From positions 1,054,001 to 1,118,000 of the forward strand of contig NZ_LNTU01000001.1 in NCBI RefSeq assembly GCF_001558695.1: 64,000 nt of DNA, written 5' to 3'. Under the pieces are notes generated by a model that made no database searches, was not told the DNA's origin, and saw only the letters and a program-made list of their open reading frames with translations. Every line of letters starts with the position of its first letter. The first letter of the stretch is position 1. The position numbers and the translations under genes are program-made. This DNA comes from Paramesorhizobium deserti (GTDB lineage: Bacteria; Pseudomonadota; Alphaproteobacteria; Rhizobiales; Rhizobiaceae). Positions 39,847 through 64,000 of this stretch are shown piece after piece.

Positions 39847-39984
39847 TCAGCCCGACTGGTCCAGCGCATGCGGCGGCATCTGCCGGTCCGGTTCATCACG
39901 CGACAGCTGAACGGCCACAATAATGGCGATGGCTGCTATTGCAATGACAATGAGCGAACCTATGAACAATCTTGGGTTCTGCAT
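39847..39984 (-). CDS. Small single-pass membrane protein (45 aa)
   Basis: A short frame reads MQNPRLFIGSLIVIAIAAIA then IIVAVQLSRDEPDRQ and ends ALDQSG. One strong membrane helix spans about residues 7-27, followed by a charged cytoplasmic or periplasmic tail. Support comes from its composition and from a GGAAC-N16-GGTT promoter ending 29 bases before the ATG; the ribosome site (AGG four bases upstream) is weak. Single-helix proteins of this size are common in the stress regulons of alphaproteobacteria. No function is known to me. Confidence 0.6.
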   Translation of the reverse strand: MQNPRLFIGSLIVIAIAAIAIIVAVQLSRDEPDRQMPPHALDQSG

Positions 39985-40012
39985 TGGCCTGGTCCGGTTT
40001 CCTCAGTTCCAG

Positions 40013-40037
40013 AACCTCCCTCATCCCGGAAAGTTCC
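40013..40037 (-). promoter_or_regulatory. EcfG-type promoter for the 45-aa membrane protein
   Basis: GGAAC (40037-40033), 16-base spacer, GGTT (40016-40013). The predicted start of transcription is about 20 bases before the ATG at 39984. Confidence 0.6.
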
Positions 40038-41183
40038 CTAATGCATGAGCGGCTTGCCCTGCCTGGAGCGGGCTGCCGCGAAGGCTTCCAGCAGCTGTTC
40101 GACCGTATCCCGGTCGACCAAAACGCGCTGGGTCGGATAGGCGAAGTTGATGTCGTTGTCCTCGAACCATTGCGCAATCTGCACAAGGATCCGCTGATGG
40201 ATATCCATGTAGATGTTGTAGTCGGGGCTCAAGACATAATAGACCGTTTCGAGACGGGGGCCGATCTGATCGAACTCCGCCAGATGCGATCGGTCGAAGC
40301 GCGTCTCGTCGATTGCCTCTATCACCTCATGAATATAGCCGGGCAATTCCTGCAGCTTGGCGATCGGCGCCCGATAATGCGTGCGCAGTTCAAAGACCAC
40401 CCGGCGCTCGCTCATCCGCTTGAAGTTGCGCAGGCGCGAATTGAGAAGCGTGTCGTTGGCGACGGAGATCTGCTCGCCTGACAGGGAGCGGATGCGTGTG
40501 GTCTTCAACCCGACCTGCTCGACCGTGCCCATGGAATCGTCAAAAATGATGAAGTCGCCGACGACGAAAGGTTTGTCCAGAATGATCGCCAGGGAGGCGA
40601 ACAGGTCCTTGAGCAGGCTTTGCAGGGCAAACGCGATGGCTATGCCGCCGATGCCGAGACCGGCCACCAGCCCGGTAATGTCGATGCCGAGATTGCTCAG
40701 CATCACCAGCGCGACGGCCGACCAGACGACCGAGATGCCCATGATCCGCACGATCTGAGCGGCGCTCGAGCGCGCCGGATCGGGCTGGCTCGGTCCGAGC
40801 AGATGATTCTCGATCCAGAGGCTGACAAGCGCTCCGCCCCAAAGCCCGATCTGGACCATCGTCGCGATCAGGACGATGGCGGCAATCAAGCGGCTGGCCT
40901 GCAGCGGCAGAATGACGAACTGCATCGCGATCCAGAGAGCGACCGCGGCGAGAAAGAAACGATATGTATGGCCGGTCAGCGCCTGCAACGTCCGCAACAG
41001 GAGATTTCTTCGCCGCGTGCCGTCACCGGCAAGCCGCCTGTCGATTACGGACCGCAGCTTTGCCATGACGGCGAAAGCGACGGCGAAGACGAGCGCCGCC
41101 AATCCCCAGACGAAAATGTGATTGCCGAAAATTTCCCACGAATGGGTGAATTCCACAATTTCGGGCAAGGTCTCTCCAGTCAT
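40038..41183 (-). CDS. MscS-family mechanosensitive channel
   Basis: A 381-residue small-conductance mechanosensitive channel. About five membrane helices precede the pore helix NLGIDITGLVAGLGIGGIAIAFALQ (about 165-190). The MscS beta domain follows with KPFVVGDFIIFDD and the conserved TTRIRSLSGEQISVANDTLLNSRLRNF. The C-terminal domain binds near QRILVQIAQWFEDNDINFAYPTQ. It releases solutes under hypo-osmotic shock. It lies 40 bases after the aldo-keto reductase and may share its stress promoter. Confidence 0.93.
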   Translation of the reverse strand: MTGETLPEIVEFTHSWEIFGNHIFVWGLAALVFAVAFAVMAKLRSVIDRRLAGDGTRRRNLLLRTLQALTGHTYRFFLAAVALWIAMQFVILPLQASRLIAAIVLIATMVQIGLWGGALVSLWIENHLLGPSQPDPARSSAAQIVRIMGISVVWSAVALVMLSNLGIDITGLVAGLGIGGIAIAFALQSLLKDLFASLAIILDKPFVVGDFIIFDDSMGTVEQVGLKTTRIRSLSGEQISVANDTLLNSRLRNFKRMSERRVVFELRTHYRAPIAKLQELPGYIHEVIEAIDETRFDRSHLAEFDQIGPRLETVYYVLSPDYNIYMDIHQRILVQIAQWFEDNDINFAYPTQRVLVDRDTVEQLLEAFAAARSRQGKPLMH

Positions 41184-41223
41184 CGATAATCGTCGATAAT
41201 ATGAACCGCTGGCCGCGGACCGA

Positions 41224-42027
41224 TCACGCGTATGGAAGCGATCCGAGCGAGGAATACCGCTCGTTCAAGCCGTTCAATTCCTTCATGTCCTCGTCGGCGA
41301 TCACAAAATCGAGGACGTCGAGATTCTCCTGCAGATGATCCTGCCGATTGGCTTTGGGCAGCGGAACGGTGCCGTTCTGCAGGTTCCAGCGGATCATGAC
41401 CTGAGCCGGTGTCTTCTGATATCTCGCCGCGATTCCGGCCAGCTTCTCGTCGTTCAAACGCTTTGAACGAGTCAGCGGACAATAGGCCTGGATGATGATC
41501 CCGTTCTCGCGGGAGAAGCGCAGCATTTTCTCACTATGGCCGAAGGGACTCCATTCGATCTGATTGACGACGGGCTTTTCGCCCGTTGCGCGGATGAGCG
41601 TATCGATCAGGTCGACGGAATAGTTGCTGACGCCGATATCCTTGGTAAGGCCCTCCTGCCTGGCACGGATGAGCCCGCGCCACAGTTCCTCGCCCGCACC
41701 CGAAGGCGGCGGACGATGGATGAGCATGAGATCCGCATAATCGAGCTGGAGCTCTTTCAGATTCCTGCCCACCGCCTCATAGGCGTCGTCCGTTTCTTCG
41801 ACCTTGGTGACCAGATAGAAGTCGGAACGCTCGGCGCCGCTGCGCTTGATGCCTTCTGCGATGCCCGGCTGCGTTCCATAATCGCCTGACGTATCGATCA
41901 TACGGTAGCCTAAGCGTATCGCCGCATCGATGACGCCAGCCGTATCGTCCGTCAATTGCCAGGTTCCCACGCCCATCACCGGCATGTTCCGTCCGGTATG
42001 CAGGGACAGTTCGCTGATCTGATGCAT
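41224..42027 (-). CDS. Aldo-keto reductase
   Basis: A 267-residue NADPH-dependent TIM-barrel reductase. The catalytic tetrad is complete: Asp and Tyr in MIDTSGDYG, Lys in YLVTKVEE and His in LMLIHRPPP. IGVSNYSVDLI, VNQIEWSPF and the cofactor-binding VPLPKANR follow. The length is on the short side of the family. GAGG six bases before ATG 42027 is preferred over ATG 42039. An EcfG-type promoter lies 53 bases upstream. It probably detoxifies carbonyls formed under stress; the physiological substrate is unknown. Confidence 0.9.
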   Translation of the reverse strand: MHQISELSLHTGRNMPVMGVGTWQLTDDTAGVIDAAIRLGYRMIDTSGDYGTQPGIAEGIKRSGAERSDFYLVTKVEETDDAYEAVGRNLKELQLDYADLMLIHRPPPSGAGEELWRGLIRARQEGLTKDIGVSNYSVDLIDTLIRATGEKPVVNQIEWSPFGHSEKMLRFSRENGIIIQAYCPLTRSKRLNDEKLAGIAARYQKTPAQVMIRWNLQNGTVPLPKANRQDHLQENLDVLDFVIADEDMKELNGLNERYSSLGSLPYA

Positions 42028-42079
42028 GTTCGGCCTCATTGATCGGCATTCTTCGGACGCATATCCACGCCACAAGCCA

Positions 42080-42104
42080 AACCTCAGCATCGCAGAATTG
42101 TTCC
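42080..42104 (-). promoter_or_regulatory. EcfG-type promoter for the aldo-keto reductase
   Basis: GGAAC (42104-42100), 16-base spacer, GGTT (42083-42080), 53 bases before the chosen ATG. Confidence 0.65.
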
Positions 42105-42134
42105 ACGGCTGAAGCCGGAGGAAAGCCCGATTTC

Positions 42135-42929
42135 TCAGGGCACGACCGCTTGCCGGCTCACCGCACCGCTCCCATGCGACGGCAAAACCGGCACTTCAAC
42201 CCTGGCGACCAGCGGCAGATGATCGGAAGCCGTGCGCGTTAAAACGTCCGACCACACTTGCGTTTCGATCGGCACAACGCCGTTGCCGACAAAGATATGG
42301 TCGAGCCTGAAGAGCGGATAGCGGGAGGGGAACGTCGCTCGCGGAGGCTTCGCGCCGAGCTGCGCATCCATCGCCTGCCGCGCAATGGTGCGATAGGCCA
42401 CCGAAGAGGGCCTTGCGTTGAAATCACCCAACAGGACGAAGGGAGCGTTCTGGCACATCGGACTTGCGAGCCAGCTCGGGCCGAGAAGCGTCACGACCTG
42501 CTGCATGCGCTCGCGCCGGCGCAATCCCAGATGGGTGTTGATCACCTGCAGCTGCGTGCCGGCGATATCGACCGAGACCCATATGGCGCCTCTTGGCTCG
42601 CCCAGCGACGGCAGCGGCCCGGCCCGTATCAGGCGTGACGGCAGCGCCGTCAGGATCGCGTCTCCATATTTCTCCTCGGCCAGATGCAGCGCGGGATGGA
42701 AATGCACCTCCATGCGCAGTTGCGACGCGATGACATGCGCCTGATCGATGCCCTGCGTGCGCGCGCGTCCGACATCGACCTCCTGAAGCGCGATGATATC
42801 GGGATCGCAATGCGCGATCACCCTGGCGATGCGCGCCGGGTCGACCTTGCCGTCCGTTCCCCGGCAACTATGCACATTATAGGTGAGCACCCTCAGCGAA
42901 AGCCCGGAATTTGAGCGGGGTAAATTCAT
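42135..42929 (-). CDS. Endonuclease/exonuclease/phosphatase-family protein (YbhP-like)
   Basis: A 264-residue EEP-fold phosphodiesterase/phosphatase. Catalytic blocks are LTYNVHSCRGTDGK, IALQEVDVGR, VINTHLGL, LLGDFNARPSS and TASDHLPLVARV. Divergent genes encode a YbhN-like membrane protein and a phospholipase-D-type synthase, reproducing the E. coli ybhP-ybhO-ybhN association, so a role in phospholipid metabolism is likely. No ribosome site precedes ATG 42929. The stress promoter ends nine bases before it, so the mRNA may be leaderless. Confidence 0.88.
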   Translation of the reverse strand: MNLPRSNSGLSLRVLTYNVHSCRGTDGKVDPARIARVIAHCDPDIIALQEVDVGRARTQGIDQAHVIASQLRMEVHFHPALHLAEEKYGDAILTALPSRLIRAGPLPSLGEPRGAIWVSVDIAGTQLQVINTHLGLRRRERMQQVVTLLGPSWLASPMCQNAPFVLLGDFNARPSSVAYRTIARQAMDAQLGAKPPRATFPSRYPLFRLDHIFVGNGVVPIETQVWSDVLTRTASDHLPLVARVEVPVLPSHGSGAVSRQAVVP

Positions 42930-42935
42930 GGGAAG

Positions 42936-42961
42936 GGAACGCTTGCCTTCTCAGGTTCGTT
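42936..42961 (+). promoter_or_regulatory. EcfG-type promoter for the YbhN-like gene (forward half of a palindrome)
   Basis: GGAAC (42936-42940), 17-base spacer, CGTT (42958-42961). It shares its bases with the reverse promoter: the site as a whole is GGAACG-N16-CGTTCC. The coding start is 36 bases further on. Confidence 0.7.
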
Positions 42962-42963
42962 CC
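42938..42963 (-). promoter_or_regulatory. EcfG-type promoter for the YbhP-like gene (reverse half of a palindrome)
   Basis: GGAAC (42963-42959), 17-base spacer, CGTT (42941-42938). With a start about seven bases downstream of CGTT, transcription would begin at or next to the ATG at 42929. Confidence 0.7.
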
Positions 42964-42997: not shown

Positions 42998-43960
42998 ATG
43001 ACCGCGTTTCGGCTTTTCATCAGGCTTTTCATTCTGCTGGCGATTTGCGTCGCAGCCTATCTGCTCTACCGCGCGATCAGCCGATACAGCCTCGATGAGA
43101 TCATCGGATCAATTCAAGCCATTTCCCTGGGCAGGCTGATGGCCGCCTTCGGTTTTGCCGCGGCTTCCTATGTCTGCTTGACGGGGTTTGATGCGCTGGC
43201 GGTGCGTTACGTAGGCAAGAAGCTCGCCTATCGCAGGATTGCGCTCGCCTCCTTCGTCAGCCTGTCGATCGGCCACAATATCGGTGTGGCGGCGCTGAGC
43301 AGCGGCGCCATAAGGTACCGCTTCTATTCCCGCTGGGGGCTGAGCGGTGGCGACGTGGCCAAGATTATCCTCTTCACGGGGACGACCGTCGGCCTGGGAT
43401 TGGCGACGCTGGGCGGCATCGGGCTGTTTCTCTATCCCGCTGACGCCAAAAGCCTGACCGACCTCAGTCCCGCGGCCATAAAGATGGTGGCAGCTGCCAG
43501 CCTGACGTTCTCAGCGCTCTATCTCGTTCTGTCGGCCTTTATCCGCAAACCGTTCGGATACCGCAAATGGAAGCTCGAACTGCCGCCTTTCCGACTGGCA
43601 GCCGGACAGATCACGGTCGGCACCCTCAATTTTGCTTTCGTCGCGGCCTGCCTCTACCAGTTGGTCGCCGCATCCGCCGAGATGCGCTACCTCGACATCG
43701 TCGCCATTTACACCACAGCCAACGCCGCGGCCATCATCAGCCATGTTCCCGGCGGCATCGGCGTGATCGAGGCGACGGTCATCTATTTTCTGCCGGGTGC
43801 GGCCGCCGTCGGCGCGGCTGTCGCCTTCCGCGTCGTTTATTTCTTCGTGCCGCTTGCATTCGGCCTGCCGCTGTTCCTCATCAGCGAACATGTGCTGCGA
43901 AAGCGCGACGAGAACGGCAAATCCCAACAGGATACGGCAATAGGCACCGCACTGCGATGA
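42998..43960 (+). CDS. Lysylphosphatidylglycerol synthase-type membrane protein (YbhN-like)
   Basis: A 320-residue membrane protein of the LPG synthase N-terminal (YbhN/AglD) family, with about eight helices. Conserved parts are LASFVSLSIGHNIGVAALSSGAIRYR, SLGRLMAAF and AAIISHVPGGIGVIEATVIYF near the end. It lacks the soluble transferase domain of MprF, as YbhN does. It probably acts in lipid transport or modification with the neighbouring cardiolipin-synthase-like protein. ATG 42998 follows AGAGGACC; the reading frame is open to 42911. Confidence 0.88.
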   Translation: MTAFRLFIRLFILLAICVAAYLLYRAISRYSLDEIIGSIQAISLGRLMAAFGFAAASYVCLTGFDALAVRYVGKKLAYRRIALASFVSLSIGHNIGVAALSSGAIRYRFYSRWGLSGGDVAKIILFTGTTVGLGLATLGGIGLFLYPADAKSLTDLSPAAIKMVAAASLTFSALYLVLSAFIRKPFGYRKWKLELPPFRLAAGQITVGTLNFAFVAACLYQLVAASAEMRYLDIVAIYTTANAAAIISHVPGGIGVIEATVIYFLPGAAAVGAAVAFRVVYFFVPLAFGLPLFLISEHVLRKRDENGKSQQDTAIGTALR

Positions 43961-43980: not shown

Positions 43981-45576
43981 TCAAAAGAATCTCGAAAAAA
44001 GAGAGCCGATATATCCGAAGACCCTCTGCAAGGGCCAGAACGGCTCCTTGGGATCCAGCAGCCCCGTGCCGATGAGCGGCGTGGTCTTGCCGTCATGCGC
44101 ATTGACGGGGAAGGCCCTCAATCCCCTCGGCCGGATGTTCAGCTCATCGATCGCCGTGACCAGCGATCCGGTGCGGGCCAGGCATTTTTCGACGGCTTGC
44201 GGCGCGGCGTCGAGATGTTCGGCGATCAGCCTGTTGCGGAAGCCGGCGATGAGATGCCGGTGAGCATCCGTCTTCGCTTCGATGGCGATGTCGCATTCCG
44301 TATCGAGGCCTTCCGAGCGATTGTTCAGATTCGACGAGCCGATGCGCACAAAGCGGTCGTCGACGACCAGGACCTTGGAATGGATGAGGACTTCGCGCTC
44401 CGCGCCGTCTTCCTCCGGCACCACGGCATAAACGACGCGCAGCCGACCAAAATGATCGGCCTTCTTCAATCGACGGATCAGCCGGTTGCGGTTATGCCCC
44501 ATGACCACCTGCTCTAGATAGCCGCGGGAACTGTACGTGGTCAGTATGACGATTTCCGGCCCGGCGGACTCCTCGAGACGCCTGGCCAGGATCTTGCCGA
44601 CGACGAAAGACGCGAGATATTGCGTCTCGATATAGATGTGGCGGCGGGCGGCGGCCAACGCACTGGCGGTCAGCCGGATGGTTTCATGTGTACCGTTCTG
44701 GCCGAAAAGCGAGGGCTCGGCACGGGCTATCGCCACGTCGCAATCCGATATTTCGTAAGCGAAACCGTTAGGCCAAATCTGCCGCCCGGCCTGTGTTCCG
44801 CCGATGCTCTCGCCGGTCGCCCGTTTCCAGCGATCACGCGCCAGATCACTGACGGCGCGTGCGGCCGCGCCTGAAACCATTGCCTGCACATCGTGGACGG
44901 GGCCGTAATCATCGCCTTTATGGGTGATCCGATGCCTGGAGCGAGCCAGATGCTCGCTGTTATCCCAGCGTCCGAACGTCAGGTCGATGCCGCCGACGAA
45001 GGCAACCGCATCATCGATGCAGACCATCTTCTGGTGATGGGACCCCCGCAAGGCATGCTTGCCGTCGAACCGCAGGTGAATCCGTGGATGGTTCGCCCAG
45101 CCGCGCTCGGTATAAAGCCTCAGCGACTTGCCCGAATAGGCCGGCCCCATGGACCAGACGAGGATGCGGACTTCGAGTTTCTCATTTTCTTCCACCTGCC
45201 TTCGCAGCAAACCGCCGAGGGTTTCGCCTTTCGGTTCCTTATGCGGCCGCAACCGGATCTCGGGATCGAAATCCCAGCCGACGATCCAGATGCTTTTCCT
45301 GGCTTGTACGAGGACCTCCCTGAGCCTGTCGAAATAGCTTTCGCCGTCGATGAGGAACGCTGCCTTTTCCGCGGCCCGAACCCGCCAGGCATTGCGGCCC
45401 GCCCGAATGATCGGCCGTGACGGGATATTCGCGGCGGAAGGCACGGGAGCCGTTCTCATTGCGCCGGCGGCGGCAGGACCGCGCATCCCTTTCCGACCGG
45501 ATATCTCGGTCCTCGCATCACCATTACCTGCCTCGGTGCGGAGCGTATTTCTGGGGTGATCCATTGGGGAATCCAT
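43981..45576 (-). CDS. Phospholipase D-family protein (ClsB/YbhO-like cardiolipin synthase)
   Basis: A 531-residue PLD-superfamily protein with two HKD motifs: HHQKMVCIDDAVAFVGG (about 180-196) and IHSKVLVVDDRFVRIGSSN (about 405-423). ETQYLAS and NRSEGLDTECDIAIEA are also conserved. The first 60 residues are low-complexity and probably unstructured. Such proteins make cardiolipin or exchange phospholipid head groups. It converges on the YbhN-like gene with 20 bases between stops. ATG 45576 lacks an obvious ribosome site; ATG 45564 is also possible. Confidence 0.88.
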   Translation of the reverse strand: MDSPMDHPRNTLRTEAGNGDARTEISGRKGMRGPAAAGAMRTAPVPSAANIPSRPIIRAGRNAWRVRAAEKAAFLIDGESYFDRLREVLVQARKSIWIVGWDFDPEIRLRPHKEPKGETLGGLLRRQVEENEKLEVRILVWSMGPAYSGKSLRLYTERGWANHPRIHLRFDGKHALRGSHHQKMVCIDDAVAFVGGIDLTFGRWDNSEHLARSRHRITHKGDDYGPVHDVQAMVSGAAARAVSDLARDRWKRATGESIGGTQAGRQIWPNGFAYEISDCDVAIARAEPSLFGQNGTHETIRLTASALAAARRHIYIETQYLASFVVGKILARRLEESAGPEIVILTTYSSRGYLEQVVMGHNRNRLIRRLKKADHFGRLRVVYAVVPEEDGAEREVLIHSKVLVVDDRFVRIGSSNLNNRSEGLDTECDIAIEAKTDAHRHLIAGFRNRLIAEHLDAAPQAVEKCLARTGSLVTAIDELNIRPRGLRAFPVNAHDGKTTPLIGTGLLDPKEPFWPLQRVFGYIGSLFSRFF

Positions 45577-45600: not shown

Positions 45601-45626
45601 AACCCCGCAACGATGGCGAAGGTTCC
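45601..45626 (-). promoter_or_regulatory. EcfG-type promoter for the PLD-family gene
   Basis: GGAAC (45626-45622), 17-base spacer, GGTT (45604-45601), 25 bases before ATG 45576. Confidence 0.6.
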
Positions 45627-45697: not shown

Positions 45698-45722
45698 GGA
45701 ACATTCGCACCGGCAAGCCGTT
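45698..45722 (+). promoter_or_regulatory. EcfG-type promoter for two small genes
   Basis: GGAAC (45698-45702), 16-base spacer, CGTT (45719-45722). A GGAG ribosome site and ATG follow at 45749. Confidence 0.7.
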
Positions 45723-45748: not shown

Positions 45749-45955
45749 ATGACAGGAAACAAACATGCAAAACGCAAGGTCCCCAGCGATGCCGACCTGA
45801 AGAGAAACCCCGGCATCGGAACATCGAAGGGCACCGTCAGGGAAGGTGACGAAACCGTGCTCAAGGGCGAAACCACGTTCGAAGGCGATGTGGAGAACGA
45901 CACCAACAGGAGTGGCGGCATCAATCCCTCGCAGACCGGACGCACGAACAAGTGA
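45749..45955 (+). CDS. Small hydrophilic protein of unknown function
   Basis: A 68-residue protein without hydrophobic segments. It starts MTGNKHAKRKVPSDADLKRN and has a Gly/Thr/Asp-rich, acidic second half with KGETTFEGDVENDTN. Composition suggests a disordered, hydrophilin-like stress protein. GGAG lies seven bases before the ATG and an EcfG-type promoter 27 bases before it. Seven bases separate it from the next small gene, so they are cotranscribed. No family recognised. Confidence 0.72.
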   Translation: MTGNKHAKRKVPSDADLKRNPGIGTSKGTVREGDETVLKGETTFEGDVENDTNRSGGINPSQTGRTNK

Positions 45956-45962
45956 GGCAGCC

Positions 45963-46208
45963 ATGACCGGACGGAAAACCCACGAACAGCAATTGCGCAT
46001 CATCGAAAAACGCGAAAACACGGCCAATGCCGACGATGATTTCGACCCGCGCACAGACCTGAAGACGCCAAAGCGGATACGCGAGGCCCAGCAGGAAGAA
46101 ACCCATTCGCCCGCCGCCCGCAAAAGGGCGCTTGAGACCGACGACCGCAGCATGCTGCGCGGCGAACACCAGGAAAGCCGGCATCACAAGAATCGACCGG
46201 ACGATTAG
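45963..46208 (+). CDS. Small highly charged protein of unknown function
   Basis: An 81-residue protein rich in Lys, Arg, Glu, Asp, Gln and His: MTGRKTHEQQLRIIEKRENT at the start and RGEHQESRHHKNRPDD at the end. No membrane helix or cysteine. It looks like an intrinsically disordered stress protein. GAGG five bases before the ATG is a good ribosome site. It is the second gene behind the EcfG-type promoter at 45698. Confidence 0.72.
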   Translation: MTGRKTHEQQLRIIEKRENTANADDDFDPRTDLKTPKRIREAQQEETHSPAARKRALETDDRSMLRGEHQESRHHKNRPDD

Positions 46209-46570
46209 CGATGAGTTGGCGCTGACGCGCCCAGCTCAATGGCCGGTTGAAGATGCACTGATCTGGATTATTGTATCAGACGGTCCGGAACGGCAAAAGC
46301 GGCCACAACAGCTTCTCTCCCCAAAAACTTATCCCACAGTTCCCACTCCGCCCTTATCCTTCCCCGCAGTTCTTCCCGCGGGAACGCGGCTCGCGACGGC
46401 GGGTCTCGCGGGGAAGGACCGGCGCTTCCGGTTGACCGCTGACGCAGTGGTGAACTGGGAGGCTTCGTCCAGGGTTTCCCCTCAAGGGAAGGGCCGAGAC
46501 GGGACGTGGGTGAATGAAGCTCCCGCGACGATCCCTAGCTCTTCTCGAAGCGGAACGGACGGACATCGCC

Positions 46571-46630
46571 GACGGGCGGTCTTGCGGCCGCAATTGAATT
46601 TATTAATGAGCGTTGGCAAGACCGCCCGTC
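46571..46630. repeat. 15-bp perfect inverted repeat, 30-base loop
   Basis: Arms GACGGGCGGTCTTGC (46571-46585) and GCAAGACCGCCCGTC (46616-46630) enclose an AT-rich loop that contains GCGGCCGC. No gene is associated. Confidence 0.8.
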
Positions 46631-46691
46631 TTCCCATTCCCGGTTCGGGGTGTTCTTCTCAATGACCAGACGCGGCAAGCGGGCGTGGTGA

Positions 46692-46725
46692 CACCCCCCT
46701 CTGGCCGGCAGGCCAGAGGGGGGTG
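46692..46725. repeat. 15-bp perfect hairpin
   Basis: CACCCCCCTCTGGCC and GGCCAGAGGGGGGTG with loop GGCA. It lies 32 bases after the stop of the minus-strand small gene and could block or end its transcription, but no T run follows. Confidence 0.8.
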
Positions 46726-46757
46726 AGAAGCAGGCGACAATGTCTGCCGTTTGGGGC

Positions 46758-50953: not shown

Positions 50954-50973
50954 GAGATACACCTTCTTTCAAA

Positions 50974-56564: not shown

Positions 56565-57670
56565 GTCACCAATCCCCGTGCTTCGAGATTGCGCCGCATT
56601 TCGGCACCCTTGTCGACGGCGCGGGAGCGGCTGACCCATTCCGCGAATTCGCCGAGCGAATTCTCCAGAAGGAAGCGGGGCTGGAAGCCGAGAAGCTCGC
56701 CGGCCTTGGAGATATCGGCAAAGCAGTGCCTGATGTCGCCGGAACGGGAGGTCCCGAGGATTTCCGGCTCGATTCCGGGCACGCCCATGACCTCCGCCAG
56801 GAGCCGCGCGACGCCTGCAATGGTATAGGAGCGGCCGCTGCCGACATTGATCACATGACCATCGGCCTGCGGCTGCTCCAGCGCCAGGCGGAAGGCCCGG
56901 GCCACATCCCTGACATGGACAAAGTCGCGGCGCTGCTCGCCATCCTCGAAGATCATCGGCCTTTGCCCGTTGGCGAGCCGCGACGAGAAATTGGCGAGGA
57001 CGCCGGTATAGGGATTAGAGAGCGCCTGGCCGGGTCCGAAGACGTTGAAGAGGCGCAACGCCACTGCCTGGCGGGCATAGGCCTGAGCGAAGATCAAGAC
57101 CGCCTTCTCCTGGCAATATTTGGTGAGGGCGTAGATGGAGGCGATATCGACCGGCTTCTGCTCGTCGGTCTGGACGGGCTCCAGCTTTCGCCCATCGGGA
57201 TTGGTGGGGTCCCAGCGCCCGGGCCCGATGGATTTGGGAACGCGGCGGACGGCCCGCTGCAACTCGCCCTCATCGTCACGGTAAAGGCCCTCGCCATAAA
57301 CGCTCATCGAGGAGGCGACGACGATACGCTCCACCGGGAGATCGATCAGCTCCTCGAGCAGGATCGCCGTTCCCAGCTCATTCGCGCCGACATAACGGGC
57401 GATCTCGTACATCGACTGCCCAACGCCGACCTCGGCGGCAAGGTGCACCACCTGGTCAATTCCGCGGAGGGCAGCGCGCAGCGCGTCGCGGTCCCTAATG
57501 TCGGCGAAGACATAATCGACGCGGCCGTCGCGCTCCGGCGCCTCCTCGCCATGGACCTGTTCGACGAGGCCATCGAGAACGCGGACGCCGTAGCCGTTTT
57601 CCAGAAGTTCGTCGGTGAGATGGCGGCCGATGAAACCGCATCCTCCGGTGATCAATATCTTCTTGTTCAC
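56561..57670 (-). CDS. NAD-dependent epimerase/dehydratase (SDR), first gene of the glycan operon
   Basis: A 369-residue extended SDR with ILITGGCGFIGRHLTDELL, VVHLAAEVGVGQSMYEI, SSMSVYGEG and YALTKYCQE (Tyr-x3-Lys). FNVFGPGQALSNPYTGVLANFSSRL resembles UDP-glucose 4-epimerase-like enzymes. It starts with GTG at 57670, preceded by GAGGAG five bases upstream. It heads the run of seven genes on the minus strand, and an EcfG-like promoter (GGAAC-N16-TGTT) ends 45 bases before the start. The exact sugar substrate cannot be read from sequence. Confidence 0.87.
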   Translation of the reverse strand: MNKKILITGGCGFIGRHLTDELLENGYGVRVLDGLVEQVHGEEAPERDGRVDYVFADIRDRDALRAALRGIDQVVHLAAEVGVGQSMYEIARYVGANELGTAILLEELIDLPVERIVVASSMSVYGEGLYRDDEGELQRAVRRVPKSIGPGRWDPTNPDGRKLEPVQTDEQKPVDIASIYALTKYCQEKAVLIFAQAYARQAVALRLFNVFGPGQALSNPYTGVLANFSSRLANGQRPMIFEDGEQRRDFVHVRDVARAFRLALEQPQADGHVINVGSGRSYTIAGVARLLAEVMGVPGIEPEILGTSRSGDIRHCFADISKAGELLGFQPRFLLENSLGEFAEWVSRSRAVDKGAEMRRNLEARGLVT

Positions 57671-57714: not shown

Positions 57715-57739
57715 AACAGGAACAACGAAGGTTTGTTCC
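57715..57739 (-). promoter_or_regulatory. EcfG-like promoter for the glycan operon
   Basis: GGAAC (57739-57735), 16-base spacer, TGTT (57718-57715; one base off CGTT). The site overlaps a palindrome GGAACAA-N7-TTGTTCC (57719-57739), which also gives GGAAC-N16-CGAT on the plus strand. Confidence 0.5.
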
Positions 57740-57819: not shown

Positions 57820-57844
57820 GGAACAATTTCCGGCTCGAAAGGTT
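57820..57844 (+). promoter_or_regulatory. EcfG-type promoter for the 91-aa protein
   Basis: GGAAC (57820-57824), 16-base spacer, GGTT (57841-57844), 83 bases before the ATG at 57928. Confidence 0.5.
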
Positions 57845-57927: not shown

Positions 57928-58203
57928 ATGAGCGAATCGAAAACCACCACCGATCATGGAACCATCCGCAAATGGGCCGAGGCGCGGGACGGTCATCCCG
58001 CACGCGTCAAGACTTCCGCGCCGGGCGGGATCCTCAGGATCGATTTCGGCGAGCCGGAGGAGAGCCTGGAAGAGATTTCGTGGGACGCGTTCTTCACGAT
58101 CTTCGACGAAAACGATCTGGCATTCCTCTACCAGGACACCACTTCGAGCGGCGGGAAAAGCCGGTTCAACAAATTCATCGAGCGCGGCTCCGAGCGGCGG
58201 TAG
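57928..58203 (+). CDS. Conserved small protein (often mislabelled glucan branching enzyme)
   Basis: A 91-residue soluble protein: TTTDHGTIRKWAEARDGHPA at the start and EISWDAFFTIFDENDLAFLY, then QDTTSSGGKSRFNKFIER. The pattern matches a family of about 90 residues that databases tend to call 1,4-alpha-glucan branching enzyme; it is far too short to be that enzyme and has no amylase motif. AGGAGG five bases before ATG 57928 is a strong ribosome site. The stress-type promoter upstream suggests a stress role. Confidence 0.82.
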   Translation: MSESKTTTDHGTIRKWAEARDGHPARVKTSAPGGILRIDFGEPEESLEEISWDAFFTIFDENDLAFLYQDTTSSGGKSRFNKFIERGSERR

Positions 58204-58246: not shown

Positions 58247-58669
58247 TCATGGATCGCTATACCCGAGAACCCTGACGCGGAGTTGCGCCGCGCCAGGGTC
58301 GGCGCTGAACAGGAAGGCGCCATGTCGCGTCGAATGCCGGGGGATATAATCGAACTCGATCTCGGCCGTTTCCGCAACCGCACCGTCGCGTTCCAACATG
58401 CCGCTCAGCCGCACACCGGCGGCCGTCTCGGTGCCCTGATTGGTGACGGCGACTGGAACGCGGAAGGCGTCGCCGGCCCTCTCGATCCTGCCGATCTCAT
58501 AGGCGAACCGCGGCGGATCGGGTGAAACGAAAAACGCCTGGTAAAGAAGAAATCCCAGCAAGCCCAAAATGAGCAGGGCGGAGAGCCCGCCCACTGCCCA
58601 TTCGACGGGGTGGGCCGTTCCTTCCTTTATCGCCGCCTTCGGCTGCCCGCTCTTCTTGGTCATATCCAT
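58247..58669 (-). CDS. TIGR02588-family membrane protein
   Basis: A 140-residue protein with one N-terminal helix (WAVGGLSALLILGLLGFLLY) and a soluble beta-rich domain: PPRFAYEIGRIERAGDAFRV, PVAVTNQGTETAAGVRLSG and EIEFDYIPRHSTRHGAF. It fits the small family usually found beside TIGR02587 proteins. Function unknown. The start is uncertain: ATG 58696, 58669 or 58663. It follows the TIGR02587 gene with at most 31 bases between. Confidence 0.8.
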   Translation of the reverse strand: MDMTKKSGQPKAAIKEGTAHPVEWAVGGLSALLILGLLGFLLYQAFFVSPDPPRFAYEIGRIERAGDAFRVPVAVTNQGTETAAGVRLSGMLERDGAVAETAEIEFDYIPRHSTRHGAFLFSADPGAAQLRVRVLGYSDP

Positions 58670-58700
58670 TTCTTCAATCCGTTGAAGCCATGCCAATGGT

Positions 58701-59573
58701 TCACAGGATCAGCCGGGCCGCCGCCGCGCCGACGGCCGACGGAAACGCCAGAACGATCATCGCCATGACGACCTGCTCGAATGCCAGACCGTCGGTGCGT
58801 CCGAAAACCCAGAGAATGAAAAGGCTCACACCCGACGCGACCACATATCCAGGCAGCGTGAAACGGATGAGGGCGCTCCACCAGGGCGTTTCCGGCGAAA
58901 GCTCCGTTCCGCCCTGAAACCCGAGAGCGAACACGAAGCCATGCATGACGGCGAGCGAGAGCAGGACCAGCGCGATCGCGTGCCATTGCGTCATCTGATA
59001 GGAGATGAGCACGGTTTCCTCCGTCGGCGCGATGTTGAACCCCAGGAACAGGGCACCCACGCCCATCAGGAACATTTCACCTCCATAGGTATCTTCCCGC
59101 CGCTGATCCGGCTCGTTGGAGGTGGCCACAAACTGGCTGCGCGCGAGCAATGCGCCTATGCCGGCCGGTATCGTCTGCAGCGCGATCTTGCCGACGATCT
59201 CCTCGACCGCCATGTCGGAACGGTTGACATTGAACAGGATCAGCACCGTCACGCTGGTGAAAAGGCCTATGCCGAGGGCGAAGACCGCATCAAGGACGAT
59301 ATCCTGCCAGCGCAAGGTGTATCTGAAGCCGATCCGGTGCGACAAGCCTATGAGAAGCGGAACCGAAAGAGCGATGAGCACCGCCAGGCGGATCGGGTCT
59401 GCGTAGAAACCCAGCCACCACATCTCCATCGTCATCAGCATGGGAAGCGAAAAGATCAGCGCCCCGCCCACCGCACGGCCGGTATCCCTGAGCAGCTTGC
59501 CATTCGAGGATCGCATTTGCCTCTTGGCGGCTGACGAACCGGTGGTTCGCCTTCGCCCATTATTACCGCTCAT
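58701..59573 (-). CDS. TIGR02587-family integral membrane protein
   Basis: A 290-residue protein with about seven or eight helices. Recognisable blocks are GGALIFSLPMLMTMEMWWLGFY, SVPLLIGLSHRIGF, EEIVGKIALQTIPAGIGALLA and the strongly conserved FLGFNIAPTEETVLIS. The N-terminal 30 residues are basic. Its function is unknown. It forms a putative complex with the TIGR02588 partner downstream. It lies 35 bases after a small exported-protein gene that has an EcfG-type promoter, so all three probably form one stress-induced unit. Confidence 0.85.
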   Translation of the reverse strand: MSGNNGRRRTTGSSAAKRQMRSSNGKLLRDTGRAVGGALIFSLPMLMTMEMWWLGFYADPIRLAVLIALSVPLLIGLSHRIGFRYTLRWQDIVLDAVFALGIGLFTSVTVLILFNVNRSDMAVEEIVGKIALQTIPAGIGALLARSQFVATSNEPDQRREDTYGGEMFLMGVGALFLGFNIAPTEETVLISYQMTQWHAIALVLLSLAVMHGFVFALGFQGGTELSPETPWWSALIRFTLPGYVVASGVSLFILWVFGRTDGLAFEQVVMAMIVLAFPSAVGAAAARLIL

Positions 59574-59608
59574 CGGCCTCGTTCCTGCCTCATCTTCATT
59601 CCGCGCAT

Positions 59609-59941
59609 TCAGTTATCCGACGGCTGATCCGGGATGGCACGGGGCGGGATGACCGGCGTCTTGCCCACGTCGGGGGGCGGAATGTCCGCTTCCGTGTCTC
59701 CCGTGGGCGGTGGCTTCAATACACTCCTGCAGCGCTCCAGCCGCTCCGCCAGGGCTTCGCGGGTCTCTCCCTGCTTGTCGTCTTTCCGCCCATCCCCGGG
59801 TTGAGCCCGGCATTCCGCCGGAACTTGCCAGTTTCCGTTCTGATCGTTCCCCTTCGCTTCATGATCGGCGGCAAGGGCGTGAAAGGGCCCCGTCGCAAGC
59901 ATTGATATGCCAAGCAAAGCGATGGATGTCCGATTTGACAT
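59609..59941 (-). CDS. Small exported protein of unknown function
   Basis: A 110-residue protein. Residues 1-25 form a signal peptide (SIALLGISMLATGPFHALA before ADHE). The mature part contains QVPAECRAQPGDGRKDDKQG and ALAERLERCRSVLKPPPTGD, with two cysteines, then a proline-rich tail. GCGAGGTTACC before ATG 59941 gives the start. An EcfG-type promoter ends 52 bases upstream. No family recognised, though exported proteins with this charged two-cysteine pattern recur in rhizobia. Confidence 0.75.
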   Translation of the reverse strand: MSNRTSIALLGISMLATGPFHALAADHEAKGNDQNGNWQVPAECRAQPGDGRKDDKQGETREALAERLERCRSVLKPPPTGDTEADIPPPDVGKTPVIPPRAIPDQPSDN

Positions 59942-59992: not shown

Positions 59993-60017
59993 AACGCCCG
60001 GGCCCCATTCCTGTTCC
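59993..60017 (-). promoter_or_regulatory. EcfG-type promoter for the exported protein/TIGR02587/TIGR02588 unit
   Basis: GGAAC (60017-60013), 16-base spacer, CGTT (59996-59993). Confidence 0.7.
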
Positions 60018-60042: not shown

Positions 60043-60067
60043 GGAACATGTCGGGTTCTACATTGTT
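60043..60067 (+). promoter_or_regulatory. EcfG-like promoter for the dehydrogenase pair
   Basis: GGAAC (60043-60047), 16-base spacer, TGTT (60064-60067; one base off), 30 bases before ATG 60097. It is divergent from the site at 59993. Confidence 0.5.
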
Positions 60068-60096: not shown

Positions 60097-61104
60097 ATGA
60101 CGCTGAACAGACCGATGACGCTCGACACGATCGCTCCGGTGCGCATGATGCACGCAGCCGTGGTCACCGGTCCGGGCGCGCTGCGCATCGAAACCGTGCC
60201 GCGGCCGGAGCCGGCGGCGGGCCAGGTGCGCGTGAAGCTGGAGGGCTGCGGCGTATGCGCCTCGAACCTGGTGCCCTGGGCCGGGCCGGAATGGATGCAG
60301 TTTCCGACCGAGCCCGGCGGCCTCGGCCATGAAGGCTGGGGCATCGTCGATGCCGTCGGTCCTGAGGTCGACACGGTCAGGGAAGGCGACCGGGTCGCGG
60401 CCCTCTTCCATCATAGCTATGCCGAATATGACGTCGGCGACGCCGAGGCGGTGGTGAAGATACCGCCCGAAATGGCCGATCAGCCCTTCCCCGGCGAACC
60501 GCTGGGCTGCGCGATGAATATCTTCCGCCGCAGCGATATCCAGCCGGGACAAATGGTGGCGATCGTCGGTACGGGTTTCATCGGCGCACTGCTCTGCCGC
60601 CTCATGGTCGGGGCGGGCGCCCATGTCATCGCCCTTTCCAGGCGCGGCTTCGCCCTTGATGTGGCGAAGCGGATGGGCGCCAGCGAGGTGATCGCGCTCG
60701 ACAACCATCATGCGGTGATCGACAAGGTGAAAGCGCTGACGGGCGGCCTCTTCTGCGACCGCGTCATTGAGGCGACGGGAAAACAGTGGCCGTTCGATCT
60801 CGCCGCCGAGATCACAAGGGAGCGTGGCCGGCTGATCATCGCCGGCTATCACCAGGACGGCCCACGGCAGATCAACATGCAGCTCTGGAATTGGCGCGGC
60901 CTCGACGTCATCAACGCGCATGAGCGCGACCCCGCGGTCTATATCCGGGGCATGCGCGAGGCGGTCGAGGCGGTGGCTTCCGGGGCGCTCGATCCGCTGC
61001 CGCTTTACACGCATCGTTTTCCCCTGTCGCGTCTCGATGAGGCGCTGAATGCGACAAGGGATCGCCCGGACGGTTTCATGAAAGCGCTGGTGACGATGCA
61101 ATGA
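60097..61104 (+). CDS. Zinc-type MDR alcohol/sorbitol dehydrogenase-like protein
   Basis: A 335-residue medium-chain dehydrogenase. The catalytic-zinc cysteine is in LEGCGVCASNL and the histidine in GGLGHEGWG; the Rossmann loop is VAIVGTGFIGALLCRL. The structural four-cysteine zinc loop of classical enzymes is missing. AAGGGG six bases before ATG 60097 fixes the start. It overlaps the Gfo/Idh gene by four bases, so the pair may oxidise and reduce positions on the same sugar or polyol. Substrate unknown. Confidence 0.85.
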   Translation: MTLNRPMTLDTIAPVRMMHAAVVTGPGALRIETVPRPEPAAGQVRVKLEGCGVCASNLVPWAGPEWMQFPTEPGGLGHEGWGIVDAVGPEVDTVREGDRVAALFHHSYAEYDVGDAEAVVKIPPEMADQPFPGEPLGCAMNIFRRSDIQPGQMVAIVGTGFIGALLCRLMVGAGAHVIALSRRGFALDVAKRMGASEVIALDNHHAVIDKVKALTGGLFCDRVIEATGKQWPFDLAAEITRERGRLIIAGYHQDGPRQINMQLWNWRGLDVINAHERDPAVYIRGMREAVEAVASGALDPLPLYTHRFPLSRLDEALNATRDRPDGFMKALVTMQ

Positions 61105-62138
61105 CGGTGCTCGACCAGATACAGCGACTGGATCCGGCCCTCAAGCGGCCCCGGCTTGGCTTTCTCGGCGTCGGGTGGATCGGCCGCCAGCGCATGGAGA
61201 CGATCCTGGCCTCGGGCTATGCCGAAGCGGTGGCGATCGCCGATCCATCACCGGAGATGACGGCGGCCGCCCAAGAGATGGCTCCCTATGCGGAAACGGT
61301 TTCATCGCTCGACGAACTGTTGGAGCTCGAGCTGGACGGGGTGGTGATCGCAACCCCCAGCGCGCTGCACGCCGCGCAGTCGGTCGAGGCCCTGAAACGG
61401 GGCGCGGCGGTGTTCTGCCAGAAGCCGCTCGGCCGCAGGGCAACCGAAGTCAAGGAAGTGGTCAGGACGGCGCGGGAGGCGGACCTGCTTCTGGGGGTGG
61501 ACCTTTCCTATCGTTTTACCGAGGCGATGCGATGCGTCCGCGACAGTATCGAGAGCGGCGAGATAGGACCAGTGTACGCGGCGGAACTCGTCTTCCACAA
61601 TGCCTATGGCCCGGACAAGCCGTGGTTCTACCAGCCCGAGCTTTCGGGCGGCGGCTGCGTGATGGATCTCGGCATCCATCTTGTCGACCTCGCGCTGTGG
61701 GCGCTGGATTTCCCCCCAGTGACGCAGGTTTCGGGCAGTCTCTTCTCGGAGGGGGAACGTCTTGGCGTCAATCCCGAGCGGGTCGAGGATTATGCCGTGG
61801 CGACGCTCGAATTCGAGACGGGGGCGATGGCGCGGATCGCCTGCTCCTGGCGGCTCCACGCCGGATGCGACGCGGAAATCTCGGCCACTTTCTACGGTCG
61901 GAGCGGCGCCCTCGCCTTCTCGAATGTCGGCGGCTCCTTCTATGATTTCAAAGCCGAACGGTTCACCGGCACGAGCCGGGAGACACTGATCAGCCCGCCC
62001 GACGCCTGGGGCGGTGTGGCCGCTGTGGACTGGGCGCGGCGTCTTGCAGCCGGTTCCGGCTTTTCGCCCTCGGCCGAGGATTATGTGAAGGTCGCGGCCG
62101 TTCTCGACCGCATCTATGGGCGGTCTACGCTCATGTGA
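61101..62138 (+). CDS. Gfo/Idh/MocA-family oxidoreductase
   Basis: A 345-residue NAD(P)-dependent dehydrogenase. It opens with RLGFLGVGWIGRQRMETIL (Rossmann loop) and carries CQKPLGRRATE (the EKP-equivalent with Gln), GVDLSYRF and GGCVMDLGIHLVDLALWAL with the catalytic DxGxH. Such enzymes act on inositols, sugars or nucleotide sugars. Coupled to the zinc dehydrogenase upstream; it converges on topoisomerase IB with an eight-base overlap of 3' ends. Being close to the glycan operon, it may supply a modified sugar. Confidence 0.88.
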   Translation: MTVLDQIQRLDPALKRPRLGFLGVGWIGRQRMETILASGYAEAVAIADPSPEMTAAAQEMAPYAETVSSLDELLELELDGVVIATPSALHAAQSVEALKRGAAVFCQKPLGRRATEVKEVVRTAREADLLLGVDLSYRFTEAMRCVRDSIESGEIGPVYAAELVFHNAYGPDKPWFYQPELSGGGCVMDLGIHLVDLALWALDFPPVTQVSGSLFSEGERLGVNPERVEDYAVATLEFETGAMARIACSWRLHAGCDAEISATFYGRSGALAFSNVGGSFYDFKAERFTGTSRETLISPPDAWGGVAAVDWARRLAAGSGFSPSAEDYVKVAAVLDRIYGRSTLM

Positions 62139-63216
62139 TGTGATTGTTCTCCGGGCGTTCGAGCCAGCGCAGCACGATCGCCTCCTCCGGGGGGAACCCC
62201 TCCGCCGGCTTGCGCATGCGGCGGCGGATCGCGTCCAGTTCGCGGGCGAGCCGGCCATCCTCCCAGGCGGTCATCACAGAGGGATGGATATAGCACTCGC
62301 GGCAGATGGTGCGGGTGTTGCCGAGTTTTGCCGCGACCTGGTCGATGATGCCGTTCATCACCCGAGCGCGCTGGCGTTTCGTCTCCGGCACCTCCGCCTC
62401 AGCAAAGAGGCCGGCCGCCCTCACCGTACCGCCCCATGTCCTGAAATGCTTGGAGCTGAAGGGCGTGCCGGCGGCCTCGCGGATATAGTCGTTGACGTCC
62501 TGCGATGCCACCGAATGGCGATTTCCGTCATCGTCCAGATATTGGAAAAGCCGCTGGTCCGGCAAATCCTGGAGAGCCCGTATCACCCTTGCGATACGGC
62601 GATCGGTGATCCTGAGCTTCCACTCCTTCCCCGATTTGCCGCTGAACTGCAGCCGAAGCGTCGAGCCTTCCAGCTCCACATGCCGCTCGCGCAAGGTGGT
62701 GAGGCCGAAGCTGTTGTTTTCCCTGGCATAGGATGGGTTGCCTATGCGGATCATGGCGCGGTCGAGCAGCCAGACTGCCGCGGCAAGCACACGTTCGCGC
62801 GGCACGCCATGCCGGCGCAGGTCGCAGTCAATCTGCTCGCGCAGCTTCGGCAGCGACCGGGCAAAGGCGGCGAGGCTCGAAAACTTCACCTCGTCGCGAT
62901 AGACGGTCCAGCGGGGGTGGTAGCGATATTGCTTGCGTCCGCGGGCGTCGCGGCCCGTGGCCTGGATATGGCCATTGCTGGCCGGGGAAATCCAGACATC
63001 GGTCCAGGCCGGCGGGATGGCAAGGGCTTTGATGCGCTTCAGCGTCTTCTCGTCGGTCACCTTGCCGCCGTCGGCCCTGATATACCAGAAGCCTTTTCCG
63101 GCGTGCCTGCGCCGGATGCCCGGCTCCATATCGCTGCAATAGACAAGGGAGGCGGCGCGCGCAGCCGCCTCGGCATCCACATATTCATTCTCACCGATTT
63201 CCGTTGCCTTGAGCAC
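62131..63216 (-). CDS. DNA topoisomerase IB
   Basis: A eukaryote-like type IB topoisomerase of 361 residues that relaxes supercoils by nicking one strand. Conserved parts are GKGFWYIRADGGKVTDEKTLKRI, ALAIPPAWTDVWI, GRKQYRYHPRW, SSKHFRTWGGTVRAA, and the nucleophile region ICRECYIHPSV with the active tyrosine. There is no ATG at the natural N-terminus; GGAGG five bases before GTG 63216 marks the start. A consensus EcfG-type promoter ends 36 bases upstream. Confidence 0.92.
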   Translation of the reverse strand: MLKATEIGENEYVDAEAAARAASLVYCSDMEPGIRRRHAGKGFWYIRADGGKVTDEKTLKRIKALAIPPAWTDVWISPASNGHIQATGRDARGRKQYRYHPRWTVYRDEVKFSSLAAFARSLPKLREQIDCDLRRHGVPRERVLAAAVWLLDRAMIRIGNPSYARENNSFGLTTLRERHVELEGSTLRLQFSGKSGKEWKLRITDRRIARVIRALQDLPDQRLFQYLDDDGNRHSVASQDVNDYIREAAGTPFSSKHFRTWGGTVRAAGLFAEAEVPETKRQRARVMNGIIDQVAAKLGNTRTICRECYIHPSVMTAWEDGRLARELDAIRRRMRKPAEGFPPEEAIVLRWLERPENNHIT

Positions 63217-63251
63217 GTAATCCTCCGAAGCTGAAGCTGCCGCAGGAAGCA

Positions 63252-63276
63252 AACGGGAAAGGGTGCGGCGGGTTCC
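63252..63276 (-). promoter_or_regulatory. EcfG-type promoter for topoisomerase IB
   Basis: GGAAC (63276-63272), 16-base spacer, CGTT (63255-63252). Divergent from the site at 63292, 15 bases away. Confidence 0.72.
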
Positions 63277-63291
63277 ATGCCGGCGAAAACG

Positions 63292-63316
63292 GGAACATGG
63301 AAGCCGCCCGCACGTT
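63292..63316 (+). promoter_or_regulatory. EcfG-type promoter for the 101-aa protein and DUF427 gene
   Basis: GGAAC (63292-63296), 16-base spacer, CGTT (63313-63316), 29 bases before ATG 63345. Confidence 0.72.
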
Positions 63317-63344
63317 GATCCGGCAGCCGAAAGGGGAACCAGCA

Positions 63345-63650
63345 ATGACCGAAATCACACATGAAGAAATCGAGGGGCGGCTGATCGCCCAGCGCGAGGT
63401 GCTGGGCTTCATGCTTGCGATCCTCGCCCGGCGGGAAGGCGCGGGTGATGCGCTCTGGAACGAGCTGGAGGAAAGGGCGACGTTCCAGAACCAGCAGGAA
63501 GATCCCGGCGTTCTGCCGACGCGCGCTTTCGCGGCGGAAGCCGCCATGATGCGCGAATTCAGGTTGATCGTCGACGAGGCCCGGGCGCGTTTCAATGAGG
63601 CCAGAGGGAAAGACCGGAACTATTCGCAGCCGCCCGAATTAGAGGAATAA
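63345..63650 (+). CDS. Small soluble protein of unknown function
   Basis: A 101-residue, mostly helical, charged protein starting MTEITHEEIEGRLIAQREVL, with LGFMLAILARREGAGDALWN and MREFRLIVDEARARFNEARG. There is no signal peptide or membrane helix. GGGG is eight bases before ATG 63345. Behind an EcfG-type promoter and 29 bases ahead of the DUF427 gene, it is probably stress-induced. No family recognised. Confidence 0.78.
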   Translation: MTEITHEEIEGRLIAQREVLGFMLAILARREGAGDALWNELEERATFQNQQEDPGVLPTRAFAAEAAMMREFRLIVDEARARFNEARGKDRNYSQPPELEE

Positions 63651-63679
63651 CGGCGCCGGCAACAATGGAGGGCCGCAAG

Positions 63680-64000
63680 ATGACAGATCCCCAAACGACG
63701 GACAGAATGACGATAAGGGCCCATCAGGGACCGGTCACGGTGCGCTTTCTCGACGTGGTCGTCGCCTCGACGGAGCGGGCAAGGGAATTGTATGAACCCG
63801 GTCACGATCCGGTGCTCTACATCCCCTTCGAGGACGTCTATTTCGTCTATATGCAGAAAACGGACAAGCGGACGGAATGTCCGCGAAAAGGCATCGCCAG
63901 CTATTGGCGGATTGTCGGGCAAGGGCAGGCCGCCGAGAATGCGGTCTGGACCTATGACGATCCCAATCCAGCCGTCGCTTCGCTGAAGGGCCATGCGGCA
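63680..64000 (+). CDS. DUF427 family protein (C-terminally truncated by window edge)
   Basis: The first 107 codons are in the window. The sequence shows the DUF427 pattern: VTVRFLDVVVASTERARELY, DPVLYIPFEDV, the motif TECPRKGIASYWRI, and AVWTYDDPNPAVASLKGHAA. GGAGG eight bases before ATG 63680 supports the start. DUF427 proteins are small cytoplasmic beta-rich proteins of uncertain role. It lies in the same unit as the preceding 101-residue protein. Confidence 0.9.
   Translation, partial: MTDPQTTDRMTIRAHQGPVTVRFLDVVVASTERARELYEPGHDPVLYIPFEDVYFVYMQKTDKRTECPRKGIASYWRIVGQGQAAENAVWTYDDPNPAVASLKGHAA

Follow-up and report, generated by a model that had tools for sequence, protein, structure and literature searches.

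The last 24 kb of a 64 kb stretch of the Paramesorhizobium deserti genome (the window; contig C1, 1054001-1118000) very probably form the larger part of a general stress response island of approximately 32 kb, the genes of which would be under the control of a sigma factor of the EcfG type. This is proposed on sequence evidence: the form, spacing and placement of the promoter motif GGAAC-N16/17-BGTT (where B is C, G, or T), its conservation in congeners, the presence of PhyR, NepR, and EcfG in the genome, and the motif 5' of phyR all fit an EcfG regulon. They likewise support the original prediction that the unknown genes of this region are likely members of the general stress response.

The motif in this strict form matches 16 times in the window, compared with a mean of 1.74 in 100 dinucleotide shuffles (standard deviation 1.36, maximum 5). 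Fifteen of the 16 matches are within 40013-63316 and the remaining one, at 4355-4379, is intragenic and is the only match in 1-39800; there are none in 72001-103000 (contig C1 is 1.48 Mb, and positions above 64000 continue the window numbering). The clustering that had been predicted for 39847-64000 is real, and outside what the original prediction could cover the cluster runs on for about 8 kb past the end of the window, to about 72.1 kb (contig C1 1094013-1125827). The genome-wide density comparison that had been proposed with the prediction was made by pattern count, and the 31.8 kb island carries 23 of the 229 matches in the genome, where 1.3 would be expected, which is approximately 19-fold above the rest of the genome.

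All 23 sites of the island (39.8-72.1 kb) are 8-83 bp (median 36) 5' of a start codon on the same strand and none is intragenic, in a gene set made with a simple caller and with a few starts corrected by hand. The spacer is 16 nucleotides in 19 sites and 17 in four. Each of the 15 starts listed in the original prediction, which had claimed the motif for at least 13 units, has a site of its own, and the one described there as weaker, for the gene starting at 57928, is a full match (57820-57844) 83 bp from the start. The listed start at 42929 also has its site, but is only 8 bp after the -10 box, which makes the GTG at 42890 the likelier start. A matrix trained on 123 GGAAC..NGTT sites from core EcfG1/NepR loci, mostly those of relatives and with the island sites excluded, gave 27 hits over 103 kb at a threshold of 13 bits, 24 of them in the island. 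Of these, 22 are strict sites and two are variants, at 63616-63640 (AATT) and 68410-68435 (AGTT, 5' of otsA and outside the window), and the strict site at 71623 is under the threshold with 12.6 bits. Since the matrix shares the definition of the motif, it tests the location of the sites and not the motif itself.

Most of the island is also present in two congeners, G002 and G005, where the motif is found in the matching gaps between genes (27 and 23 matches, respectively, in 40 kb). Alignment was possible for 22 of the 23 sites in G002 and for 19 in G005, with GGAAC and GTT intact in every case, although the G005 orthologue of the site at 63292-63316 reads AGTT. In the ungapped alignments the box bases are identical at 144/144 positions in G002 (18 sites) and 120/120 in G005 (15 sites), while the rest of the spacer in the same subset is identical at 176/219 and 107/181 positions; gapped and unaligned rows were skipped, and the count omits three of the 23 sites, at 42080 (unaligned), 49460 (gapped), and 42938 (a duplicate of its overlapping partner). 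The base before GTT differs among promoters and is kept in 31/33 cases, compared with 283/400 for the remainder of the spacer with positions 6-9 left aside (P 0.002 for the two congeners pooled; 0.12 for G002 and 0.006 for G005 taken singly).

A GGAAC-like -35 sequence is common to several groups of extracytoplasmic function (ECF) sigma factors, and a further ECF-type sigma factor, with a PhyR_sigma2-like match, is encoded on contig C23. It might be argued from this that only some of the motifs are used, in what would be a stress neighbourhood where many of the GGAAC/GTT pairs arose by chance or serve a different ECF sigma factor. Indeed, one altered control pattern, GGAAC..BTTG, gives eight matches in the island, six of them before starts, although these may include real sites read one base off. 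The other seven of the eight control patterns give no match or one match, however, there are no motif sites in the 10 kb around the sigma gene on contig C23, and the retention of both boxes at every aligned congener site, together with a spacing of 16-17, argues against this explanation, which is very improbable.

Sigma factors of the core locus and of the island

The core locus of the general stress response, on contig C34, encodes NepR (E 9.7e-17), PhyR (two sigma-like domains and a receiver), EcfG (here EcfG1), and two HWE/HisKA2-type kinases, with eight motif sites in 20 kb, including a strict site 5' of phyR. The motif is also present in 30/30 of the NepR loci that were fetched, out of 45 found in this and related genomes. 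A second sigma gene of ECF15 type, here called EcfG2-type (70822-71376), is located at the end of the island that is outside the window, downstream of a promoter of its own at 70747-70771. Under stress, the kinases would phosphorylate PhyR, which would draw NepR away from EcfG1; RNA polymerase with EcfG1 would then initiate at the island promoters, that of ecfG2 included, and EcfG2 may add to or prolong the output.

A 40-row tree places the island sigma with two Phyllobacterium plasmid sigmas (61-63% identity), a Chelatococcus sigma, the sigma of Sinorhizobium meliloti pSymB, which we take to be RpoE5, and that of Rhizobium etli p42f (RHE_RS26680), which we take to be EcfG2/PF00052. Orthologues at 94-97% identity are present only in G002 and G005 among the 60 relatives searched. 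Neither PhyR nor a Pfam NepR is encoded beside the island sigma gene, PhyR and the sole PF18557 NepR of the genome being at the core locus. Convergent to the island sigma gene there is a 65 amino acid open reading frame (ORF; 71393-71590) with a weak hhalign match to NepR (probability 6%, E 0.006, 31 gapless columns), where the NepR side was built from 13 sequences, its own and those of 12 other fetched loci of the 30. This ORF has no Pfam hit at E 1 and no match in plasmids. As a NepR-like ORF is found near S. meliloti rpoE5 on the opposite strand, according to passages of PMC6180224, the 65 amino acid ORF was considered as a candidate anti-sigma factor, for which the NepR match gives only a weak indication.

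The location of ecfG2 inside the island, behind a promoter of its own, would also be expected if the island formed a regulon apart, driven chiefly by EcfG2, in which EcfG1 acted on ecfG2 alone or not at all. The target sets of the two R. etli sigma factors overlap in part, 11 genes being shared by the lists from the single mutants (passages of PMC3892343), which is in keeping with such a division. However, the island promoters have the same form as the one before phyR and those in the training loci of the matrix, and nothing was found that sets the island promoters apart; an island run separately by EcfG2 is unlikely, if less easily set aside.

The reading of the island as part of an EcfG regulon, with EcfG1 acting on its promoters and on that of ecfG2, has several points against it. 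The genome-wide total of 229 matches in the 5.48 Mb assembly is only a modest excess over the 182 of a reversed control, which would mean that isolated matches elsewhere are mostly due to chance. There is no strict site before nepR-ecfG1 at the core locus. The EcfG2-type group is apart from canonical EcfG1 with moderate support (89/91), and the R. etli row in the tree is a long branch whose place is unsure. In the passages of the papers compared, R. etli EcfG1 does not directly activate ecfG2 in E. coli (PMC3892343), S. meliloti RpoE5 has a single putative target (PMC6180224), and the promoter pattern of non-canonical EcfG is called undetermined (PMC8103513). Speaking for EcfG1 control of ecfG2, S. 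meliloti RpoE2 raises rpoE5 in the same source (PMC6180224).

Absence of the island from a congener

In the congener G004 the flanks are joined, up to 39827 and from 72631, with only about 215 bp between them, and there is no motif in the 20 kb of G004 across this junction. Of four aligned stretches of the flanks, three have 84-86% DNA identity and one has 75%. G001, G003, and G004 have no match, at the thresholds used, to DUF2391, to CgeB2 (our label for the product of 52068-53159), or to the second sigma. A block missing between two intact flanks, and marker genes missing from three congeners, might indicate a recent mobile insertion that brought its own sigma factor and targets and that is not part of the older chromosomal stress programme. 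The junction in G004, however, keeps 64 bp with 78% identity to the island gene at 66545-66898 (E 1e-7), which suggests that G004 lost the island as a block by deletion, although this stretch may instead be a related gene from elsewhere. In addition, in base composition the island is like the other parts of the window, a search of the window for tRNA genes found none, the island proteins scanned include no member of an integrase or transposase family, and the sole RepC match of the genome is on contig C4, with none on C1, which carries the island sigma. A recent insertion is therefore quite unlikely.

The core-locus DNA tree places G004 next to the three island bearers, and at this locus G004 is nearer to P. 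deserti (82% identity) than is the bearer G002 (76%), so that the data at this locus would fit more than one branching order, and with it either gain or loss of the block.

Two neighbours of the island are also of note. A cytochrome oxidase operon (72734-77166) directly follows the island in P. deserti and is present at the G004 junction as well; in G002 and G005 the island is followed by DUF2189, and the operon was not found there. Just outside the other end there is a 1288 amino acid autotransporter (35299-39165), the best matches of which in G002 and G004 have 71-74% identity (88% over one end in G002), below most of the flanking genes.

Gene content and the glycan operon

The putative promoters of the window are all strict matches and, unless stated otherwise, are covered by the congener alignments; protein families are from Pfam except where noted. 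The first, at 40013-40037 (- strand; boxes kept in G002 and G005), is 5' of a 45 amino acid ORF at 39847-39984 (-), probably a membrane protein as it has a hydrophobic stretch, with 77% and 68% identity in G002 and G005 and no Pfam hit. The promoter at 42080-42104 (-), not alignable in G002 or G005, precedes an aldo/keto reductase (41224-42027, -) and a mechanosensitive channel (40038-41183, -); the reductase is missing from the island of both congeners, where a site precedes the channel gene, MscS.

Two overlapping divergent promoters of the form GGAACG-N16-CGTTCC, at 42936-42961 (+) and 42938-42963 (-), are between the gene of an endonuclease/exonuclease/phosphatase (EEP)-family protein (42135-42929, with the likelier start at 42890; -) and that of an LPG_synthase_TM membrane protein (42998-43960, +). 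Overlapping bidirectional promoters were considered as a special device and rejected: the additional CC after GTT is seen in 34 of 256 sites (13%), which is the background rate after GTT, and the overlaps would come about because the consensus is near-palindromic. This particular pair is still conserved in both G002 and G005, though overlaps overall are at the chance rate. A phospholipase D (PLD)/cardiolipin-synthase-type protein (PLDc, PLDc_2; 43981-45576, -) follows, with its promoter at 45601-45626 (-). The EEP-family, PLD-type, and LPG_synthase_TM genes resemble the trio ybhP-ybhO-ybhN of E. coli.

The promoter at 45698-45722 (+) is 5' of two small hydrophilic proteins of 68 and 81 amino acids (45749-46208, +; grand average of hydropathy (GRAVY) -1.31 and -1.89; 80-96% identity in G002 and G005), and that at 47046-47070 (-), identical in G002 and not aligned in G005, is 5' of a hydrophilic protein of 72 amino acids (46758-46976, -; GRAVY -1.63; 93% and 81% identity). 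These three very hydrophilic proteins (45749-46976; GRAVY -1.3 to -1.9) would fit a role as protectants against drying. A glycine-zipper protein (49177-49428, -), a PEBP-family protein (48616-49173, -), and an FAD oxidoreductase with a Rieske domain (47092-48615, -) are behind the promoter at 49460-49484 (-), the boxes of which are kept in G002; the unit was not found in G005, in the island of which no glycine-zipper, PEBP, FAD-Rieske, or DUF892 gene was found. The promoter at 49499-49523 (+) precedes a hydrophilic protein of 104 amino acids with a hydrophobic C-terminal stretch (49550-49864, +; 85% and 65% identity in G002 and G005).

On the far side of the glycan operon described below, the promoter at 57820-57844 (+) is 5' of a 91 amino acid protein (57928-58203, +), which is near this operon in several genera. 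No Pfam family was found for this member, which is predicted to be a small alpha/beta domain (mean predicted local distance difference test score 83) with no convincing structural match; its orthologue in G005 has an in-frame stop. The unit at 58247-59941 (-), with its promoter at 59993-60017 (-), encodes a 110 amino acid protein (59609-59941), followed by a DUF2391 membrane protein (58701-59573) and a TIGR02588 protein (58247-58696), both by profile match. A zinc-type alcohol dehydrogenase and a Gfo/Idh/MocA oxidoreductase (60097-62138, +), a pair that is beside the operon in many relatives, have their promoter at 60043-60067 (+), and bacterial DNA topoisomerase IB (62131-63216, -) has its own at 63252-63276 (-). 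The last promoter of the window, at 63292-63316 (+), where GGAAC and GTT are kept, is 5' of a 101 amino acid protein and then a DUF427 protein (profile match) running past the window (63345-64000, +). The 8 kb beyond the window encode UdgX, PRC-barrel, OtsA-type, and DUF3182 proteins, the EcfG2-type sigma, and DUF892.

Taken by likely site of action, there is an envelope or membrane set (mechanosensitive channel, PLD-type enzyme, LPG_synthase_TM, EEP-family, glycine-zipper, and DUF2391/TIGR02588 proteins), a solute or redox set (an OtsA-type trehalose-6-phosphate synthase, at 533.9 bits under its curated cut-off of 564.85, the aldo/keto reductase, the alcohol dehydrogenase, Gfo/Idh, and the FAD-Rieske oxidoreductase), and a DNA-acting set (topoisomerase IB and UdgX), with PEBP, PRC-barrel, DUF892, DUF427, and DUF3182 proteins besides. 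As predicted from sequence, these products look protective: the small hydrophilic proteins, trehalose-6-phosphate synthase, a glycan for the surface or for storage, the proteins of the envelope and of phospholipids, UdgX, topoisomerase IB, and the ferritin-like DUF892. Passages of PMC6599016 name topoisomerase IB, YbhB/YbcL-type, zinc-alcohol dehydrogenase, PRC-barrel, and glycosyltransferase genes as EcfG-dependent in Sphingomonas melonis Fr1, a likeness in the annotated kinds of gene and not one of sequence comparison.

The glycan operon has seven genes (49895-57670, -; Pfam/NCBIfam), encoding three NAD-dependent epimerase/dehydratases, one family-4 glycosyltransferase, and three PF13524 glycosyltransferases, the order of which is kept in most of the relatives examined; its promoter is at 57715-57739 (-), with the motif also upstream in relatives. 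As there is no transporter or polymerase among the genes, a glycolipid or small glycan would be as likely a product as an exported polymer. CgeB2 is present in 18/101 genomes, P. deserti included. The promoter survey of this operon covered 34 of 80 loci, the other 46 being dropped, and the loci are not independent, several being from Rhizobium. With the motif relaxed to N15-18 and NGTT, 19/22 alphaproteobacterial orthologues (64-70% identity) have it 36-111 bp 5' of the first gene, as BGTT in 17 and AGTT in two, and it is absent near the start in three Devosia loci. It is found in 0/7 Bradyrhizobium loci (52-55% identity) and 0/5 non-alphaproteobacterial relatives, and the strict site is present in 6/14 further relatives. 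Universal stress control of the operon is rejected by these Bradyrhizobium, non-alphaproteobacterial, Devosia, and strict-site counts.

In several relatives the operon is beside shuffled sets of island genes (EcfG2-type sigma, UdgX, topoisomerase IB, DUF2391, DUF892, and the 91 amino acid protein). R. etli CFN42 plasmid p42b has the same seven genes (RHE_RS22265-RS22295; 51-71% identity) with the divergent alcohol dehydrogenase and Gfo/Idh pair and the motif upstream, but there a TIGR04290 methyltransferase follows, a family that in P. deserti is in a second glycan cluster. This cluster, at contig C1 308001-328000, has six motif sites and encodes GlgE, Host_attach/baeRF12, inositol-3-phosphate synthase, a PF13524 glycosyltransferase, and a nucleotidyltransferase in addition to the methyltransferase.

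Comparison with known systems

In ten genomes picked for having an EcfG2-type match, there are 69 sites in the 184 kb surrounding the EcfG2-type genes (7.5 per 20 kb; reversed control 12) and 69 in the 198 kb surrounding EcfG1 (7.0 per 20 kb; reversed control 4), compared with four in arbitrary stretches that total 180 kb, taken from nine of these genomes (0.44 per 20 kb; reversed control 2). Without the three island bearers the densities per 20 kb are 5.4, 5.6, and 0.33, respectively (reversed 1.5, 0.14, and 0.17). The counts around the EcfG2-type genes vary, from none (in 10.5 kb) in G013, two in G029, and three in G014 to nine within 10 kb on R. etli p42f; the S. meliloti gene has six in the surrounding 24.5 kb. 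As targets crowd around ecfG1 too, a second sigma factor is not needed to explain the clustering. It is possible, though doubtful, that the island is the extreme case of these motif-dense ecfG1 and ecfG2 neighbourhoods, a self-amplifying stress module that has its own EcfG2 and is kept or lost as a unit, in which the base before GTT may set whether a promoter is read by EcfG1 or EcfG2.

General stress regulons hold many genes of unknown function, and because the block is contiguous up to 43 predicted genes can be proposed as regulon members from sequence alone. The congeners with and without the block provide a natural comparison, the glycan operon is a candidate for a conserved, shared stress output, and the island draws attention to the role of the EcfG2-type sigma factors. 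No comparable contiguous island of stress promoters was found in the literature covered, which was by title and abstract opening, with supplements and most subscription papers outside its scope and no search made on the name of the organism, and which also includes passages of PMC3188799, PMC7083833, and PMC3616915.

The island sigma groups with the presumed EcfG2 and RpoE5, from R. etli plasmid p42f and S. meliloti pSymB, respectively, and like them has motif-rich surroundings and no adjacent PhyR or Pfam NepR; it differs in being on a 1.48 Mb contig with no RepC match and in ending a larger block. The regulon itself is of a type already known, that of PhyR-NepR-EcfG (ECF15), represented by R. 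etli EcfG1/RpoE4 and S. meliloti RpoE2, with which the island shares the promoter form, the core switch, and the kinds of target in the passages compared (PMC3892343, PMC6180224). Indeed, the R. etli EcfG1 motif is given there as GGAAC-N16-CGTT (PMC3892343), and the mapped RpoE2-dependent promoters of S. meliloti have the same form (PMC6180224). Those passages describe no block such as the one here, where 23 promoters are present in 32 kb. As far as the literature covered goes, what is new in comparison with these systems is the packing of the regulon into one block with EcfG2, the absence of this block from a congener with intact flanks, and the recurring, though not universal, link to the glycan operon.

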